DNA of 6,025 bases from Pseudomonadota bacterium (GTDB taxonomy: Bacteria; Pseudomonadota; Gammaproteobacteria; Burkholderiales; Casimicrobiaceae), in the NCBI GenBank assembly GCA_022709775.1, contig JAKLIE010000133.1:1-6025 (forward strand), in the 5' to 3' direction. Position 1 is the first letter of the stretch, and the number at the start of each line of letters is the position of its first letter. The notes under the pieces were generated by a model. The model saw nothing but the letters and a program-made list of their open reading frames with translations, was not told where the DNA came from and did no database searches. This document shows positions 1-6,025 of this stretch, in pieces. The position numbers and the translations under genes were made by a program.

Positions 1-827
1 ATGCGGTTGAGCTCGTTGACGCGGCAGTAGTGCAGCGCGGCGTAGATCTTGTAGTCCTGCATCCGCGCCTCGGTCGCGAGGAACGGATCGGGCCAGCGGA
101 TCGAGACGCCGTCGGGCGGCAGCGGAAAATCGTCGGGGACGACGATGTTGACGCGGTCCGGGTCGATCGACACCGAGGCCGAGCTCTCGACGGTGTCGGC
201 GACGCACTTGAAGCCGACCCACAGGCCCGAGTAGCGGCTCATCGCCCAGCCGTGCAGGCCGAGGTCGAGGATCTCCTGCACGCTCGACGGGTAGAGCACC
301 GGGATCATCGCCGCCGAGAACTGGTGGTCCGACTGGTGGGGCAGCGTCGAGGACTTCGCGGCGTGGTCGTCGCCCGCGAGCGCGAGCACGCCGCCGTGCT
401 TCGAGGTGCCCGCGAAGTTCGCGTGCTTGAACACGTCGCCGCAGCGGTCGACGCCCGGTCCCTTGCCGTACCACATCGCGTAGACGCCGTCGACGGTGGC
501 GCCCGGGTGCAGGTTGAGCTGCTGCGTGCCCCATATCGACGTCGCCGCGAGGTCCTCGTTCAAGCCCGGCTGGAACGTGACGTTCGCACGCCCGAGGAAC
601 TTCTTCGCGGCCCAGAGTGCCTGGTCGAGCCCGCCCAGCGGGCTTCCGCGGTAGCCGGAGACGAAGCCGCCGGTGTTGAGCCCCGCGAGCCTGTCGCGCT
701 GCTGCTGCAGGATCAGGAGCCGGACGATCGCCTGCGTGCCCGTGAGATAAACGCGGCCGGAGTCGAGCGCGTACTTGTCGTCGAGGGAGACGTTCGCGAG
801 CGCGGCGCCGGTGCCGGGTGGTGACAT
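1..827 (-). CDS. Indolepyruvate ferredoxin oxidoreductase (fused IorA/IorB type), N-terminal 275 residues, runs off the window
   Basis: This enzyme oxidatively decarboxylates aryl-pyruvates such as indolepyruvate to the aryl-acetyl-CoA, with CoA and ferredoxin, in the cytoplasm. It acts in aromatic amino acid breakdown. I translated the minus strand from ATG at 825-827. The product begins MSPPGTGAALANVSLDDKYA and matches the N-terminus of the long (about 1,150-residue) fused proteobacterial form. Conserved blocks are GYRGSPLGG (58-66), the glycine-rich segment starting GKGPGVDRCGD (121-131), GDDHAAKSST (152-161) and YPSSVQE (179-185). They belong to the pyruvate:ferredoxin oxidoreductase-like pyrimidine-binding domain. 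The TPP-binding and C-terminal gamma-like domains should lie beyond position 1. A GGAG ribosome binding site (complement of 834-837) sits 6 nt before the ATG, supporting this start. The gene is read away from the rest of the window. It lies 269 nt downstream of the BCAM0308-like gene on the same strand and may be a separate unit. Confidence 0.93.
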   Translation of the reverse strand, partial: MSPPGTGAALANVSLDDKYALDSGRVYLTGTQAIVRLLILQQQRDRLAGLNTGGFVSGYRGSPLGGLDQALWAAKKFLGRANVTFQPGLNEDLAATSIWGTQQLNLHPGATVDGVYAMWYGKGPGVDRCGDVFKHANFAGTSKHGGVLALAGDDHAAKSSTLPHQSDHQFSAAMIPVLYPSSVQEILDLGLHGWAMSRYSGLWVGFKCVADTVESSASVSIDPDRVNIVVPDDFPLPPDGVSIRWPDPFLATEARMQDYKIYAALHYCRVNELNR

Positions 828-833
828 CAGGGA

Positions 834-837
834 CTCC
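834..837 (-). promoter_or_regulatory. Ribosome binding site of the indolepyruvate oxidoreductase gene
   Basis: On the minus strand this reads GGAG, followed by 6 nt and the ATG at 827-825. It is a canonical Shine-Dalgarno arrangement and fixes the start codon. Confidence 0.7.
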
Positions 838-863
838 GCAAAATCGTGTTTTGGGGACGCTTG

Positions 864-884
864 GGGATGCAAGGATGGCATCCC
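864..884 (-). other. Perfect 7-bp hairpin in the oxidoreductase leader
   Basis: GGGATGC (864-870) and GCATCCC (878-884) are exact reverse complements around a 7-nt loop. The element lies about 40-55 nt upstream of the start codon, inside the probable 5' untranslated leader. No T-tract follows on the minus strand, so it is not an obvious terminator. I cannot assign a function. Confidence 0.35.
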
Positions 885-1096: not shown

Positions 1097-1618
1097 TCAG
1101 CCGCGATGCCAGCGGACGCGGACGACGTACTCGTCCTCGCCGTAGCGCACGTCGAGCTCGCCGTCGTAGGCGCGCTCGAGCGCGCGGCCGATGCGCTGCG
1201 GCAGGTGGATGTCGGTCGTCGTGACGACGCTCGCAGTCGGGCAGTCCTCGATGCCCATGATCCGGTTCAGCGGATGCTCCTGGCGCTCGTGGTCGGCCTC
1301 GTTCCGCGCGAGGTGCAGGATCTCGTCGCGATGCGCGAGGAAGAACGGACCCTCGATCGTCAGCATGCCGGCCGGCAACTCCTCGCGGATGCGCCTGCAG
1401 GCGGGGCAGACGACCGAATGGGCGCCCGGCTCGGCGGGTGCCCACTGCCAATGCCCGCGATGGTAGGCCGCCCGGCAGTCCTCGCACACGGCCGGCTCCT
1501 TGACCTTGCCCGCCGCCTGATAGGGGTCGTGCTTCTTCTCGTCGAACACCCGCGCGCCGTGGCGATCGACGCCACCTTGCGGCCGGGTCGGAGTATGGGA
1601 TCCGCGCTGCTTCGACAT
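1097..1618 (-). CDS. BCAM0308-family protein, putative four-cysteine zinc-ribbon protein of unknown function
   Basis: This is a 173-residue soluble protein with no signal peptide or membrane segment. The basic N-terminus (1-30) leads into the conserved HDPYQ segment (30-34). Two CxxC pairs follow, C45/C48 and C71/C74, separated by 22 residues and spanning YHRGHWQW. This looks like a single zinc-ribbon. Then come the family-typical blocks starting LPAGMLTIEG (81-90), HRDEILHLARNEADH (96-110) and HPLNRIMGIED (115-125). The C-terminus (128-172) has the look of a small alpha/beta domain. Recognition as the BCAM0308 family is from memory of these blocks. No biochemical role is known to me. In B. 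cenocepacia the name-giving locus tag lies, as I recall, within the low-oxygen-activated cluster. The ATG is preceded by GGAG (complement of 1626-1629) at 7 nt. The gene is divergent from the archease-PEBP chimera and shares with it an FNR-type dyad, suggesting induction at low oxygen. Confidence 0.85.
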   Translation of the reverse strand: MSKQRGSHTPTRPQGGVDRHGARVFDEKKHDPYQAAGKVKEPAVCEDCRAAYHRGHWQWAPAEPGAHSVVCPACRRIREELPAGMLTIEGPFFLAHRDEILHLARNEADHERQEHPLNRIMGIEDCPTASVVTTTDIHLPQRIGRALERAYDGELDVRYGEDEYVVRVRWHRG

Positions 1619-1625
1619 GCTCGTT

Positions 1626-1629
1626 CTCC
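1626..1629 (-). promoter_or_regulatory. Ribosome binding site of the BCAM0308-like gene
   Basis: Minus-strand GGAG followed by 7 nt and the ATG at 1618-1616. A good Shine-Dalgarno match that supports the chosen start. Confidence 0.7.
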
Positions 1630-1642
1630 TCGAGGCGGCCGC

Positions 1643-1656: not shown

Positions 1657-1688
1657 CTCATACTGGTGGTACCCCGATCGGCTTCCAG

Positions 1689-1694
1689 ATTACG
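1689..1694 (-). promoter_or_regulatory. Candidate -10 element of the BCAM0308-like gene
   Basis: On the minus strand this reads CGTAAT, 4 of 6 to TATAAT. Its centre is exactly 32 bp from the centre of the TTGAC-N4-GTCAA dyad, the spacing of a class-II FNR-dependent promoter. Transcription would start near 1682 and give a leader of about 64 nt. Weak by itself; the spacing is what makes it worth recording. Confidence 0.4.
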
Positions 1695-1716
1695 CGCCTT
1701 GCCGCACGGGGCCCCG

Positions 1717-1730
1717 TTGACAGGGGTCAA
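1717..1730. promoter_or_regulatory. FNR/Anr-type operator, perfect dyad TTGAC-N4-GTCAA
   Basis: TTGACAGGGGTCAA is a perfect 5-4-5 inverted repeat. It fits the TTGAY-N4-RTCAA pattern bound by FNR, Anr and Dnr regulators of the CRP/FNR superfamily, which control genes at low oxygen. It is AT-richer than its surroundings. It lies between two divergent genes, 52 nt before the plus-strand ATG at 1783 and 98 nt from the minus-strand ATG at 1618. Candidate -10 hexamers sit 32 bp from its centre on both sides. The sequence and spacing are seen directly; binding by an FNR-family protein is inferred. Confidence 0.6.
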
Positions 1731-1752
1731 GCCGAGGTGGGGACCTGGCCGG

Positions 1753-1758
1753 AATACT
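1753..1758 (+). promoter_or_regulatory. Candidate -10 element of the archease-PEBP/kinase transcript
   Basis: AATACT matches TATAAT at 4 of 6 positions, including the key A at -11 and T at -7. Its centre is exactly 32 bp downstream of the dyad centre, so the dyad would be at -41.5 relative to a start near 1765. That start would make the in-frame ATG at 1765 leaderless and leave an 18-nt leader with a ribosome binding site before the ATG at 1783. Confidence 0.45.
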
Positions 1759-1772
1759 GGGCGCATGGGAGC

Positions 1773-1776
1773 AGGA
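1773..1776 (+). promoter_or_regulatory. Ribosome binding site of the archease-PEBP chimera
   Basis: AGGA followed by 6 nt and ATG at 1783-1785. It favours this start over the in-frame ATG at 1765 and agrees with archease homology beginning right after the second ATG. Confidence 0.6.
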
Positions 1777-1782
1777 TCGCGC

Positions 1783-2301
1783 ATGGCGTGTGAGCACTTC
1801 CGGCACGAGGCGGACATCGGCGTCAGCGGGATCGGGGCGACGCCCGGTGCGACCTTCTCCGACGCGGCGCCGACGGCGGTCGTGACCGATCGGGCGGGGC
1901 GCGCCGGCAGGGTCGCGGTCGACATGGGCAGCGAAGCGCCCGACGACGACAGCCTCATCGCCGACCGGCCCGGCGCATCCGATCCCGCGAACCCGACGAC
2001 GACATGGGTGCACAGGGTGCGCGGCAACCTGCCGGCCTCGTCGACCGGGCTCGTCGAAGTGGTCGCGCCATCGGCGCTGCCGCCGGGCACCGCGCTGGGA
2101 ACGAACGACTGGCGCCGGACCCGCCGGGGCGGCCGGCGCCCGCCGATCGGCCGCCACCGCCACTTCTTCGAGCTCCACGCGCTCGAAGCGGCGCTGCCGG
2201 CTTCGCTCGGCGCCCCGACGAAGGCAGCGCTCGAGAAGGCGATGCACGGCCACGTGCTCGCGAGCGCGAAGCTGGTCGGCACGTACCGGAAGCGGCGCTG
2301 A
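1783..2301 (+). CDS. Chimeric ORF: N-terminal archease fragment fused in frame to C-terminal PEBP (YbhB/YbcL) fragment, probably decayed
   Basis: The 172-residue product has two parts. Residues 2-56 resemble archease, the activator of the RNA ligase RtcB. EHFRHEADIGVSGIGAT (4-20) carries the H-x-ADIG metal-site motif, followed by the AVVTD (32-36) and EAPDD (51-55) blocks. Residues 62-172 resemble the Raf-kinase-inhibitor-like PEBP family: DPANPTTTWVH (67-77), NLPA (82-85), GTNDW (106-110), PPIGRHRHFFELHALE (120-135), and a tail starting APTKAALEKAM and ending LVGTY. The join is at SLIAD (57-61, nt 1951-1965), where both families have a similar leucine/isoleucine-rich strand ending in Asp. 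Roughly half of archease and the first third of PEBP are missing. The PEBP part has radical changes at usually conserved places: WV to RV after the histidine, TGYGGPC to TRRGGRR, HRY to HRH. The frame is open throughout and has a ribosome binding site and promoter candidate, so it may still be translated. Neither original activity is expected. The kinase gene follows after 21 nt. Confidence 0.72.
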   Translation: MACEHFRHEADIGVSGIGATPGATFSDAAPTAVVTDRAGRAGRVAVDMGSEAPDDDSLIADRPGASDPANPTTTWVHRVRGNLPASSTGLVEVVAPSALPPGTALGTNDWRRTRRGGRRPPIGRHRHFFELHALEAALPASLGAPTKAALEKAMHGHVLASAKLVGTYRKRR

Positions 2302-2322: not shown

Positions 2323-3906
2323 TTGCCCATCGAGCTCACGCTGGCGGACCAGACGCGCCTCGTCGCGGCACTGCGCGATGCGCTGGGGGCCGGCGTGCGG
2401 GTGATCGAAACGCACATCTCGTACGTGCTGCTCGCCGGCGGGTACGCGTACAAGATCAAGAAGGCGGTCTCGCTCGGCTTCGTCGACTGCTCGACGCTCG
2501 CGCTGCGGCGGCGCTACTGCGAGGAGGAGCTGCGGCTCAACCGCCGGCTGGCGCCGGCCGTCTACCTCGACGTCGTGCCGATCGCCGGCACCGTCGAGCG
2601 ACCGTCCCCGGGCGGCGCCGGGCCGCCGATCGAGTTCGCGGTGCGGATGCGCGAGTTTCCGCAGGAGTCGCTGCTCGCCCGCGAGATCGAGCGCGGCGAG
2701 CTCTCGGCTCGGGAGGTCGACGCGCTCGCGGCGATCGTCGCGGCTTTCCACTCGAGAATCGCGGTCGCGAGTCCCGCCGACGGCTACGGCTCGCCGGACG
2801 AAGTGCTCGCCTACGCGCGCGAGAACTTCGAGCACCTCGAGCGCCTGCGCGGCGATCCGGCCGAACGCGAAGCCCTCGCCGCGCTGCGGGGCTGGACGGA
2901 AAGCGAATTCGCCGCACTGCGCGGCGCCATCGAGGCGCGCCTCGCCGGCGGGTTCGTCCGCGAATGCCACGGCGACCTCCACCTCGGCAACGTCGCGCGC
3001 GTCGAGGGGAAGATCGTCGTCTTCGACGGCATCGACTTCAACGCGCACCTGCGCTGGATCGACGTGGCGAGCGAGATCGCGTTCACGGCGATGGATCTCG
3101 AGGACCGCGGGAGGCCGGACTTCGCGCACCGGTTCGTCGACGCGTACCTGTCGATCACCGGCGACTACGCGGGCCTCGAGATGCTCTCCTTCTACGTCGT
3201 CTACCGGGCGCTGGTGCGCGCGAAGGTGGCGGCGCTGCGTGCGCGGCAGCTCGCGGCGCCCGACGCGCGTGGACCGGTCGACCGCGAGTACGACGGGTAC
3301 GTCGCGCTCGCGGTGCGCCGTGCCGGGAGCGGACACCCGGGGATCGTCGTCACGCACGGGTTGTCCGGCTCGGGCAAGACGACGCGGTCGCAGGCGTTCC
3401 TCGAGCAGGTCGGCGCCGTGCGCCTGCGCACCGACGTCGAGCGCAAGCGCCTGCGCGGCCTCGCCGCGCAGGCGCGGTCGGGATCGGACGTCGAGGGGGG
3501 GCTCTACGGCGCGGAGACGACCCGCGCGACCTACGAGCGGGTCTGCGATCACGCGCGGACGGTCGTGGCCTCCGGGCGCATCGCGATCCTCGACGGGACG
3601 TTCCTGAAGCGCTGGCAGCGCGACCTCGCGCGCTCGCTCGCGGCCGAGCTCCGCGTGCCGTTCGCGATCCTCGCGTTCGCGGCGAAGCCCGAGACGCTGC
3701 GCCGACGCATCGTCGCCCGCTCGCTCGCGGGCACCGACGCGTCGGAGGCGAATCTCGCGGTGCTCGCGCGCCAGGTCGCGACCCAGGAGCCGCTCGCGCC
3801 CGACGAGATGGGCGCCGTCGTCGCGTACGACGCGGAGGCCCCGCTCGCGCAAGCGCCGGACCCCGAAGCGTGGCGCGAGGTCCGCGCGCGGCTTCGGCTG
3901 CCCTAG
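2323..3906 (+). CDS. Bifunctional aminoglycoside-phosphotransferase-like / P-loop kinase protein
   Basis: A 527-residue cytoplasmic protein with two kinase domains, a full-length member of a family usually about 500-530 long. Residues 25-310 form an APH/choline-kinase-like fold. YAYKIKKAVSLGF (41-53) holds the probable ATP-binding lysine, CHGDLHLGN (215-223) is the catalytic loop with D218 and N223, and VVFDGIDFN (232-240) has the metal-binding Asp. Residues 340-527 form an AAA/gluconate-kinase-like domain. HGLSGSGKTT (345-354) is Walker A with K352, RTDVERKR (369-376) is a substrate/lid element, and AILDGTF (421-427) looks like Walker B. The substrate of either half is unknown; despite the family name there is no reason to infer antibiotic resistance. 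The start is TTG: homology begins near residue 8, no better start lies upstream, and AGG (2313-2315) sits 7 nt before it. It lies 21 nt after the chimera and probably shares its FNR-type promoter. Confidence 0.9.
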   Translation: MPIELTLADQTRLVAALRDALGAGVRVIETHISYVLLAGGYAYKIKKAVSLGFVDCSTLALRRRYCEEELRLNRRLAPAVYLDVVPIAGTVERPSPGGAGPPIEFAVRMREFPQESLLAREIERGELSAREVDALAAIVAAFHSRIAVASPADGYGSPDEVLAYARENFEHLERLRGDPAEREALAALRGWTESEFAALRGAIEARLAGGFVRECHGDLHLGNVARVEGKIVVFDGIDFNAHLRWIDVASEIAFTAMDLEDRGRPDFAHRFVDAYLSITGDYAGLEMLSFYVVYRALVRAKVAALRARQLAAPDARGPVDREYDGYVALAVRRAGSGHPGIVVTHGLSGSGKTTRSQAFLEQVGAVRLRTDVERKRLRGLAAQARSGSDVEGGLYGAETTRATYERVCDHARTVVASGRIAILDGTFLKRWQRDLARSLAAELRVPFAILAFAAKPETLRRRIVARSLAGTDASEANLAVLARQVATQEPLAPDEMGAVVAYDAEAPLAQAPDPEAWREVRARLRLP

Positions 3907-4965: not shown

Positions 4966-5756
4966 GCCGCGGCCCCGACCCGCGCGACGTGATCGCGACG
5001 CTCGACGCGGCGCACGCGTACGCGGCGCACGGCTGGTCGGTCATCCCGTTCGAGGCGCGCAGCAAGCGGCCGGGGCTCGCGTGGCTCGAGTTCCAGAATC
5101 GTCGCGCCTCCCGGCAGGAGGTCGAGAGCTGGTTCCGGCACCGCCGCGACGCGAACGTCGGCGTCGTGACCGGCGCGATCTCGGGCATCGCCGTGATCGA
5201 CGTCGACGCCGGCCACGACGGCATCCAGAGCCTGAAGCGGCTCGAGGTCGAGCACGGCCCGCTGCCGGTCACCGTCGAGGCGATCACCGGAGGAGGCGGA
5301 CGCCACCTCTATTTCGCGCACCCGGGCGGCACCGTGCCCAATCGCGTCGGACTGTTCCCGGGCATCGACGTGCGCGGCGACGGCGGATGCGTCGTCGCGC
5401 CGCCGTCGATGCACGCGAGCGGGCGCCGCTACGCGTGGGCGACCGGACGCGCGCCGGGGGAGACCGCCGTCGCGCCCATGCCCGCGTGGCTGCAGGACAC
5501 GCTCAGGCCGGGCAGCGCGCATCCGGGCAAGCCGCTGGCGCACTGGCGCGAGGTCGTCCGCACCGACATCGGCGAAGGCATGCGCAACAACACGCTCACT
5601 TCGCTCGCCGGCCACCTGATGTGGCACGGCGTCGACGTCGAGGTCGCGCTCGAGCTGCTGCTGGGATGGAACCGGCTGCGCTGCAGGCCGCCTCTTCCCG
5701 ACGACGAGGTCGCCGGCATCGTCGACAGCGTGGCGCGCATGCATGCCCGCGCCTGA
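4962..5756 (+). CDS. Compact bifunctional DNA primase/polymerase (Prim-Pol, AEP superfamily) with PriCT-like C-terminus
   Basis: The 264-residue product contains the full set of archaeo-eukaryotic primase Prim-Pol motifs. The N-terminal AYAAHGWSVIPFEARSKRPG (19-38) is the family opening. Motif I is AVIDVDAGHDG (77-87) with metal-binding D80 and D82. GGGGRHLYF (110-118) has the nucleotide-binding H115. PGIDVRGDGGCVVAPPS (133-149) has the third acidic residue, D136. Residues 195-262 resemble the PriCT helical domain: GMRNNTL (206-212), then CRPPLPDDEVAGI (241-253). Family members can make primers and extend them with dNTPs or NTPs. Most are larger, fused to helicases, and carried by plasmids, phages or integrated elements; here no helicase or mobility gene is visible. 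The GTG start at 4962 gives the overlap GTGA with the DHH stop and no Shine-Dalgarno, pointing to translational coupling. A later in-frame GTG at 4989 is possible but would cut the N-terminal helix. Base composition matches the neighbours. Confidence 0.87.
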   Translation: MSRGPDPRDVIATLDAAHAYAAHGWSVIPFEARSKRPGLAWLEFQNRRASRQEVESWFRHRRDANVGVVTGAISGIAVIDVDAGHDGIQSLKRLEVEHGPLPVTVEAITGGGGRHLYFAHPGGTVPNRVGLFPGIDVRGDGGCVVAPPSMHASGRRYAWATGRAPGETAVAPMPAWLQDTLRPGSAHPGKPLAHWREVVRTDIGEGMRNNTLTSLAGHLMWHGVDVEVALELLLGWNRLRCRPPLPDDEVAGIVDSVARMHARA

Positions 5757-5764
5757 CGTCGTCC

Positions 5765-5781
5765 GTCCGCACGCTTCGGAC
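5765..5781 (+). other. Weak hairpin between the primase and hydrolase genes
   Basis: GTCCG (5765-5769) pairs with CGGAC (5777-5781) around a 7-nt loop. A pyrimidine-rich stretch containing TCAATCTTT (5791-5799) follows a few nt later. It could be a weak terminator or just spacer; the rest of the 52-nt gap (5757-5808) shows nothing else. Confidence 0.2.
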
Positions 5782-5808
5782 CCCCTCACCTCAATCTTTG
5801 CCGCGACC

Positions 5809-6025
5809 ATGACCCCGACGCCGCTCCTTCCCGCCGTCACGATCGACACCGGACGCGATCCCGACGCGTCGGTCATCTGGATGCACGGTCTCGGCGACAC
5901 CGGCCACGGCTGGTCGCAGATCGTGCCCGAGCTCGCGCTGCCGCCGTCGCTGTCGGTGCGCTTCCTGTTCCCGCACGCGCCGTCGATGCCGGTGACGATC
6001 AACCAGGGCTACGTGATGCCGGCGT
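5809..6025 (+). CDS. Alpha/beta-hydrolase, carboxylesterase/phospholipase family, N-terminal 72 residues, runs off the window
   Basis: The visible product starts MTPTPLLPAVTIDTGRDPDA and continues with VIWMHGLGDTGHGW (22-35), the HGLGD oxyanion-loop motif of the YpfH/EstB-type carboxylesterases. VRFLFPHAPSMPVTINQG (50-67) follows, the next conserved strand and the PHAP(S/x)xPVTxN(x)G signature. Family members of about 220 residues hydrolyse short-chain esters or lysophospholipids in the cytoplasm. The nucleophile GxSxG, the catalytic Asp and His lie past the end of the window and cannot be checked. The ATG at 5809 fits the family N-terminus; no clear Shine-Dalgarno precedes it. It follows the primase by 52 nt on the same strand, so it may be the last gene of the same transcript or a separate unit. 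Confidence 0.9.
   Translation, partial: MTPTPLLPAVTIDTGRDPDASVIWMHGLGDTGHGWSQIVPELALPPSLSVRFLFPHAPSMPVTINQGYVMPA

Follow-up and report, generated by a model that had tools for sequence, protein, structure and literature searches.

The 6,025-nucleotide stretch of DNA analysed here (the window, about 6 kb with a G+C content of 72.7%) carries one perfect FNR/Anr-type dyad between two divergent genes, with class-II spacing to a candidate -10 element on both sides, the minus-strand element lacking the A at position 2. This dyad would, with a confidence somewhat better than even, be a shared operator at which an oxygen sensor of the FNR/Anr type serves two divergent class-II promoters, one for a BCAM0308-family gene and the other for a chimeric gene and the putative kinase gene behind it. 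That such operators occur with class-II spacing in this group of bacteria is a statistical observation, while the two-way use of the window site is judged from its geometry (Table 1) and from the recurrence of similar sites in relatives.

Table 1. Features of the window around the predicted operator (positions counted from the first nucleotide of the window)
Feature	Position	Strand	Remarks
FNR/Anr-type operator dyad TTGAC-N4-GTCAA, TTGACAGGGGTCAA	1717..1730	none	0 mismatches to TTGAY-N4-RTCAA; centre 1723.5
Putative -10 AATACT, plus promoter (chimera/kinase genes)	1753..1758	+	centre 1755.5; 4/6 with A2 and T6
Putative weak -10 CGTAAT, minus promoter (BCAM0308-family gene)	1689..1694	-	centre 1691.5; 4/6, no A2
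Predicted plus transcript start	1765	+	operator at about -41.5; from -10 position
Predicted minus transcript start	1682	-	from -10 position
BCAM0308-family gene	1097..1618	-	173 aa; start ATG 1618; low-oxygen-activated locus family
Ribosome-binding site AGGAG	1626..1630	-	7 nt ahead of ATG 1618; by sequence
YbhB/YbcL (PEBP) C-terminal part + archease-like N-terminus gene (chimera)	1783..2301	+	PF01161 3.5e-15, C-terminal part
Ribosome-binding site AGGA	1773..1776	+	6 nt ahead of ATG 1783; by sequence
APH + AAA_33 fusion protein, putative kinase	2323..3906	+	PF13671 1.1e-32; PF01636 1.3e-8
Indolepyruvate ferredoxin oxidoreductase family gene, left end of window	3..881	-	

Genes flanking the dyad

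The product of the minus-strand gene scores 194.5 bits against the NCBIfam model NF040826 (lxa_BCAM0308), for which the curated cut-off is 100, and is thereby assigned to the family. At the protein level, the nearest relatives (P0001 to P0006) have identities of 69 to 90%. BCAM0308, which is named in one account (PMC4981469), falls by its number within BCAM0275-BCAM0323, a Burkholderia cenocepacia locus reported to be activated at low oxygen (PMC6127331), and no described function of the BCAM0308-family gene was found.

On the plus strand the chimera is followed by the APH + AAA_33 fusion, a 318-aa protein and a Prim-Pol protein. The first ~40 residues of the chimera are presumably archease-like, judged by eye. 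An ATG at 1765-1767 is in frame with the chimera gene and its A coincides with the predicted plus transcript start; ATG 1783 was taken as the translation start, which leaves a leader of ~18 nt, because AGGA precedes it by 6 nt and because P0121, a homologue with 98% identity, has its predicted start at the residue encoded by this codon. As this nearly identical copy exists, the chimera is not the error of a single assembly. Its YbhB/YbcL part deviates from homologues at several positions, for example with GRRPP where P0122 and P0124 have GPCPP, and it may be a decaying fusion.

The 318-aa protein behind the kinase gene had no match in Pfam or NCBIfam, and the putative kinase no sequence match among PDB chains at E 0.001. 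APH + AAA_33 homologues were present inside the fetched stretches of 8 of the 97 other BCAM0308 loci (L004, L005, L066, L074, L080, L094, L096 and L106), a recurrence that suggests a functional link. Towards its right end the window carries an esterase-like gene (5743-6024) which, judged by eye from its start sequence, is of the same kind as the gene opposite BCAM0308 in locus L001; the block of chimera, kinase, DHH-like and primase genes may have been inserted in the window or lost in L001.

Recurrence of the dyad upstream of BCAM0308-family genes

The palindrome described in the sequence-only reading was retrieved exactly, at the same coordinates and with the same centre. At the composition of the window, 6 kb should contain 0.0007 copies of the exact motif and 0.0013 of the pattern TTGAY-N4-RTCAA by chance; with up to two mismatches allowed, shuffled sequences lead to an expectation of 0.73 matches, and the perfect dyad is the sole match in the window. 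Single-sequence scans of genome contigs and viral contigs for BCAM0308 relatives found none, while an alignment scan found them. In all, 98 loci were gathered (33 from named genome contigs, 64 from whole genomes and the window), among which the partial matches of G114 and G301 are not counted. L034 to L043, repeats of L001 to L009 and L033, are likewise not among them, and three of the 98 loci (L032, L033 and L099) were dropped as they offered less than 250 bp of upstream sequence. With the start codons of the homologues guessed by position, a few of them clearly not start codons, 18 of 95 loci, the window included, carry a perfect TTGAY-N4-RTCAA within 250 bp upstream of the BCAM0308-family gene, compared with 0.04 expected and with 0/95 for the reversed control pattern. 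On these counts a chance palindrome was rejected, and the enrichment supports the FNR/Anr-type nature ascribed to the dyad.

Conservation in orthologous regions, which the sequence-only reading had made a point of, held in part. Within the family of genome G001, the perfect dyad is present upstream of BCAM0308 in 6 of 12 relatives' loci, while one further locus retains 9 of the 10 positions and five, with 7 or 8 of 10, have no good dyad.

In forward counts over whole genomes, perfect dyads number 36 in G001, 21 each in G002, G003, G011 and G033 and 13 in G009, against 0 (G001), 0 (G002), 1 (G003), 1 (G009), 6 (G011) and 1 (G033) for the reversed control. The type found in the window, with C/G at the fifth positions, makes up 32 of the 122 relatives' dyads analysed for spacing, and 25 of these 32 have at least one class-II arm, an arm being one side of a dyad. 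The distribution of dyads can be uneven: a 118 kb contig of G033 (G033:C18; L167, L168) holds 10 of the 21 perfect dyads of its genome, nine of them within ~29 kb around the BCAM0308 gene, and this stretch looks like a low-oxygen gene island. An identical perfect dyad, TTGATGCGCATCAA, occurs twice in each of two loci, with the copies 131 bp apart in L127 (G011:C50) and 119 bp apart in L155 (G002:C423), perhaps a conserved double-operator arrangement.

Class-II spacing in the group

Of 23 FNR-activated promoters of E. coli whose start is known, 19 are reported to have the operator at -41.5 ± 4 (PMC3688515). The equivalent spacing in relatives of the window was examined in a census restricted to perfect dyads, those with less than 80 bp on a side being dropped. 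A first set consisted of 75 unique dyads with 80 bp per side (from G011, G002 and G033, 12 of the 21 of G003 and one of G001) and a second of 47 further dyads from G001 and G009. Hexamers were accepted with at least four of six matches plus A2 and T6, at offsets of 17 to 72 and irrespective of genes. Among the 150 arms of the first set, 11 hexamers are centred at offset 31 and 20 at offset 32, with 0-4 at any other offset; the 94 arms of the second set have 5 at 31 and 8 at 32, with 0-3 elsewhere. Given this pile-up at 31-32 bp in both sets, class-II spacing is common and statistically supported in this group, in agreement with E. coli.

A -10 mixture model fitted to the 150 arms returned the pattern YAnnnT, with A2 at 81% and T6 at 88%, and offset 32 holds 65% of its weight. 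Control positions show how many arms exceed a posterior of 0.5 by chance, namely 12-26 of 150. A -10 element is present in 80 of 160 arms that face a called gene vs 19 of 84 arms that do not (Fisher 3e-5), the gene calls being heuristic (open frames with high third-position GC). Hexamers without A2 are mildly enriched at offset 32 (4/150 arms vs 0-3 at other offsets). From the census comes a -10 model that can be used for the FNR promoters of uncultured Betaproteobacteria rich in G+C.

The two arms in the window

Both hexamers of the window match TATAAT at four of six positions and both are centred exactly 32 bp from the centre of the dyad, as the sequence-only reading had it. AATACT at this offset has a likelihood ratio of 7.9, and the plus arm a posterior of 0.82-0.83 under the local model. 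For CGTAAT the ratio is 3.2. It lacks A2, a base with a share of 81% in the model, and this makes the minus arm the weak one. An alternative minus-strand hexamer, TAATCT (1692-1687), reaches a ratio of 23 at offset 34, yet this spacing holds only 4% of the model weight; together the two hexamers bring the minus arm to a posterior of 0.72-0.73, to which CGTAAT at 32 contributes about two thirds and TAATCT at 34 the remaining third. The score of the plus arm is reached by 1.3% and that of the minus arm by 2.6% of window positions on both strands, and 4 of the 5865 possible centres in the window have both arms as good as here. The geometry in the window is better than chance, with the minus arm its weak part. 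A plus promoter is likely and a minus promoter plausible from these hexamers; in the window the plus promoter is the better of the two, and the weak minus promoter is on the side conserved among relatives.

Mirror-image sites in relatives

Two arms with a posterior above 0.5 were found at 13 of 75 dyads in the first set (0 to 4 of 75 in control shifts) and at 4 of 47 in the second (0 to 1 in controls). Of the pooled 17/122 both-armed dyads, 9 have equal offsets on the two sides because 32 is the commonest spacing. The statement that exact symmetry is unusual holds only in part: under the strict hexamer rule just 2 of 75 dyads have both arms, fewer than under the fitted model. Paired arms are uncommon but recurrent, and the arrangement is already known elsewhere.

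Both arms occur at 11 of 52 dyads between divergent gene pairs vs 6 of 70 in other contexts (Fisher 0.064); that this enrichment is beyond doubt was rejected, with p values of 0.038 and 0.28 for the first and second sets and 0.064 for both pooled, and the both-armed dyads outside a called divergent pair (6/70) count against a bidirectional reading. For the 11 divergent pairs, proteins were viewed for 10 (all except L243:690) and families searched for 9 (L152 excluded); many of these proteins are cut by stretch ends, so that scores lie below curated cut-offs. A nirS-like cytochrome c faces a uroporphyrinogen-III-type methyltransferase across a both-armed dyad in three genomes (L138, L156 and L243), the cd1 domain of the cytochrome c protein being matched in L243 only; L156 and L243 have stronger arms than the window. 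In two genomes (L146, L249) a 2-oxoacid:acceptor oxidoreductase-type protein faces a dehydrogenase, which in L146 is closest to the 6-hydroxycyclohex-1-ene-1-carbonyl-CoA family. Other both-armed dyads lie between a POR-domain subunit and a succinate dehydrogenase/fumarate reductase membrane subunit (L141), a fumarate reductase flavoprotein and a phosphodiesterase-like protein (L167), and Hsp20 and BCAM0308 (L252). The pair in L155 had no NCBIfam match. Both-armed dyads are thus seen repeatedly between divergent genes, some of them anaerobic.

Of the 18 BCAM0308 loci with a dyad, four (L001, L002, L044 and L045) have it in training regions of the -10 model. A class-II -10 element with a posterior above 0.5 is directed towards BCAM0308 in 15, and six have it on both sides (the window, L009, L015, L020, L023 and L045). 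In two of the 15, L076 and L082, the -10 may be spurious, as the hexamer overlaps the likely ribosome-binding site and the ATG. By eye, the second arm of L045 points back at an upstream reading frame running in the direction of BCAM0308, which shows that a both-armed dyad need not go with two genes.

The candidate regulator

Thirty regulator loci from relatives contain seven sequences that fit the helix pattern, five of which carry CxxCx5C near the N-terminus, cysteines we take to be the Fe-S ligands of FNR. These five come from G001, G003, G009 and G011, four of the six relatives' genomes searched; the helix-pattern search found no CxxCx5C regulator in G002 or G033. In G003 (L194 / G003:C239) the gene of an FNR-type regulator with CxxCx5C adjoins the BCAM0308 gene on the opposite strand, its helix-turn-helix match lying ~110 bp beyond the BCAM0308 match. 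Each of the six relatives' genomes matches the CRP/FNR helix-turn-helix family 4 to 11 times, in part below the cut-off of that family. From these relatives we infer the identity of the regulator that would bind the window site, and oxygen as its signal.

Comparison with known systems

One comparison is with the alphaproteobacterium Dinoroseobacter shibae. There, one Fnr/Dnr dyad, TTAAC-N4-GTCAA, is reported between nirS (at -39.5) and nosR2 (at -41.5); reporter fusions were active in both directions, dependent on DnrD and reduced without FnrL, mutation of the site abolished nirS expression, and a second shared site was predicted between hemA3 and dnrE (PMC5398030). This system and the window have in common one dyad amid divergent genes with class-II spacing on each side, and they differ in that the genes of D. 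shibae are denitrification genes, its two sides differ by 2 and its starts are known, whereas in the window both offsets are 32 and the starts are predicted.

The consensus of FNR has T/A at the fifth positions, where the dyad of the window has C/G. Class-II FNR promoters of E. coli such as dmsA and narG resemble the window in the location of the operator centre at about -41.5, as reported (PMC3688515). They differ from it in being described for one direction.

El-Robh and Busby (2002) reportedly dealt with a single CRP site that serves divergent promoters. CRP belongs to the same superfamily, one symmetric dimer governing both directions, with cAMP as the signal; an account that calls the control of both divergent promoters by one regulator rare in E. 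coli lists 11 of its promoter pairs, divergent and under CRP control, with one CRP site in between (PMC3105977). At bidirectional promoters of E. coli, two opposite starts are reported to occupy one short segment, where they can compete for polymerase, and at a promoter of this kind with overlapping starts an activator, CRP at -40.5, blocked the RNA of the other direction (PMC12825309). By analogy, such blocking would count against two-way firing at the window site. The symmetry in E. coli lies within the -10 element; the window has two -10 elements, one on each side of an activator site and 64 bp from each other.

Alternative readings

The operator could be one-directional, which is unlikely for either direction. 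If it served the BCAM0308-family gene only, AATACT would be a chance A+T-rich hexamer or an unused start. The BCAM0308 direction is indeed the conserved one (15/18 dyad-bearing loci, the other side 6/18), partner genes vary among BCAM0308 loci (esterase-like in L001 by eye, Hsp20 in L252 and L009) and 12-26 of 150 control arms pass 0.5 by chance; however, the better -10 of the window points away from BCAM0308 and has a suitably spaced ribosome-binding site and ATG 1783 downstream of it. The converse, a class-II operator of the chimera/kinase genes with BCAM0308 using another promoter or having a decayed FNR promoter, is equally unlikely. It would account for the higher score of AATACT, which has A2 and T6, and for the missing A2 of CGTAAT, but 15 of the 18 dyad-bearing BCAM0308 genes have a class-II -10 on their side, and scanning the intergenic region with the consensus revealed no sigma-70-type promoter, a result on which ordinary sigma-70 promoters with -35 elements were rejected there.

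Improbable to a higher degree is that the dyad is read by a regulator of the Dnr, FixK or NnrR type, with nitric oxide or a relay as the signal rather than oxygen directly. Dnr sites are reported to be indistinguishable from Anr boxes (PMC5398030), the relatives' genomes offer several CRP/FNR-type candidates (the 4 to 11 helix-turn-helix matches given above), and some of their both-armed dyads lie at nitrite-reductase-like genes; on the other hand, five of the seven helix-pattern regulators carry CxxCx5C, and BCAM0308 is within a locus reported as low-oxygen-activated in Burkholderia cenocepacia (PMC6127331). That palindrome and both hexamers are a coincidence is hardly credible: each -10 matches at four of six positions, yet 0.0007 exact dyads are expected, the upstream count of 18/95 faces an expectation of 0.04, and 4 of 5865 centres are as good.

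Proposed mode of action and implications

In the preferred reading of a shared operator, a [4Fe-4S] dimer would bind to 1717-1730 at low oxygen, and each face of the symmetric dimer could contact an RNA polymerase whose -10 element is 32 bp off. On the AATACT side this would lead to transcription of the chimera/kinase genes from about 1765, and on the CGTAAT side to that of the BCAM0308-family gene from about 1682, or else 1680. Class-II promoters are not known to need a good -35 element. Either/or firing is likely, since two polymerases would overlap over the dimer, and simultaneous firing in both directions is doubtful; any single DNA copy would be transcribed in only one direction at a given moment, the two genes would both be induced in the population as a whole, and the plus direction would probably be the stronger. 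The start points, the oxygen response and the either/or mode are all predicted. The proposal that one dimer activates both directions is supported in part, by the dyad, the 32-bp geometry on both sides and the recurrence of both-armed dyads, and the minus -10 is its weak element.

Going further, and only as a tentative possibility, mirror-image class-II sites might have been selected as a module that recurs in the low-oxygen regulon of these uncultured Betaproteobacteria, and in which the FNR dimer would act as a two-way branch point with competing polymerases, so that the partners would be co-induced in the population and never on the same DNA copy at once. The recurring divergent pairs, a nirS-like gene with a uroporphyrinogen methyltransferase and a 2-oxoacid:acceptor oxidoreductase with a dehydrogenase, would be places where polymerase competition at one activator is measurable. 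If the shared operator is real, the BCAM0308-family gene and the chimera/kinase genes would be under one oxygen-controlled site, perhaps together with the DHH-like and primase genes behind the kinase, which would provide a first handle on their role.
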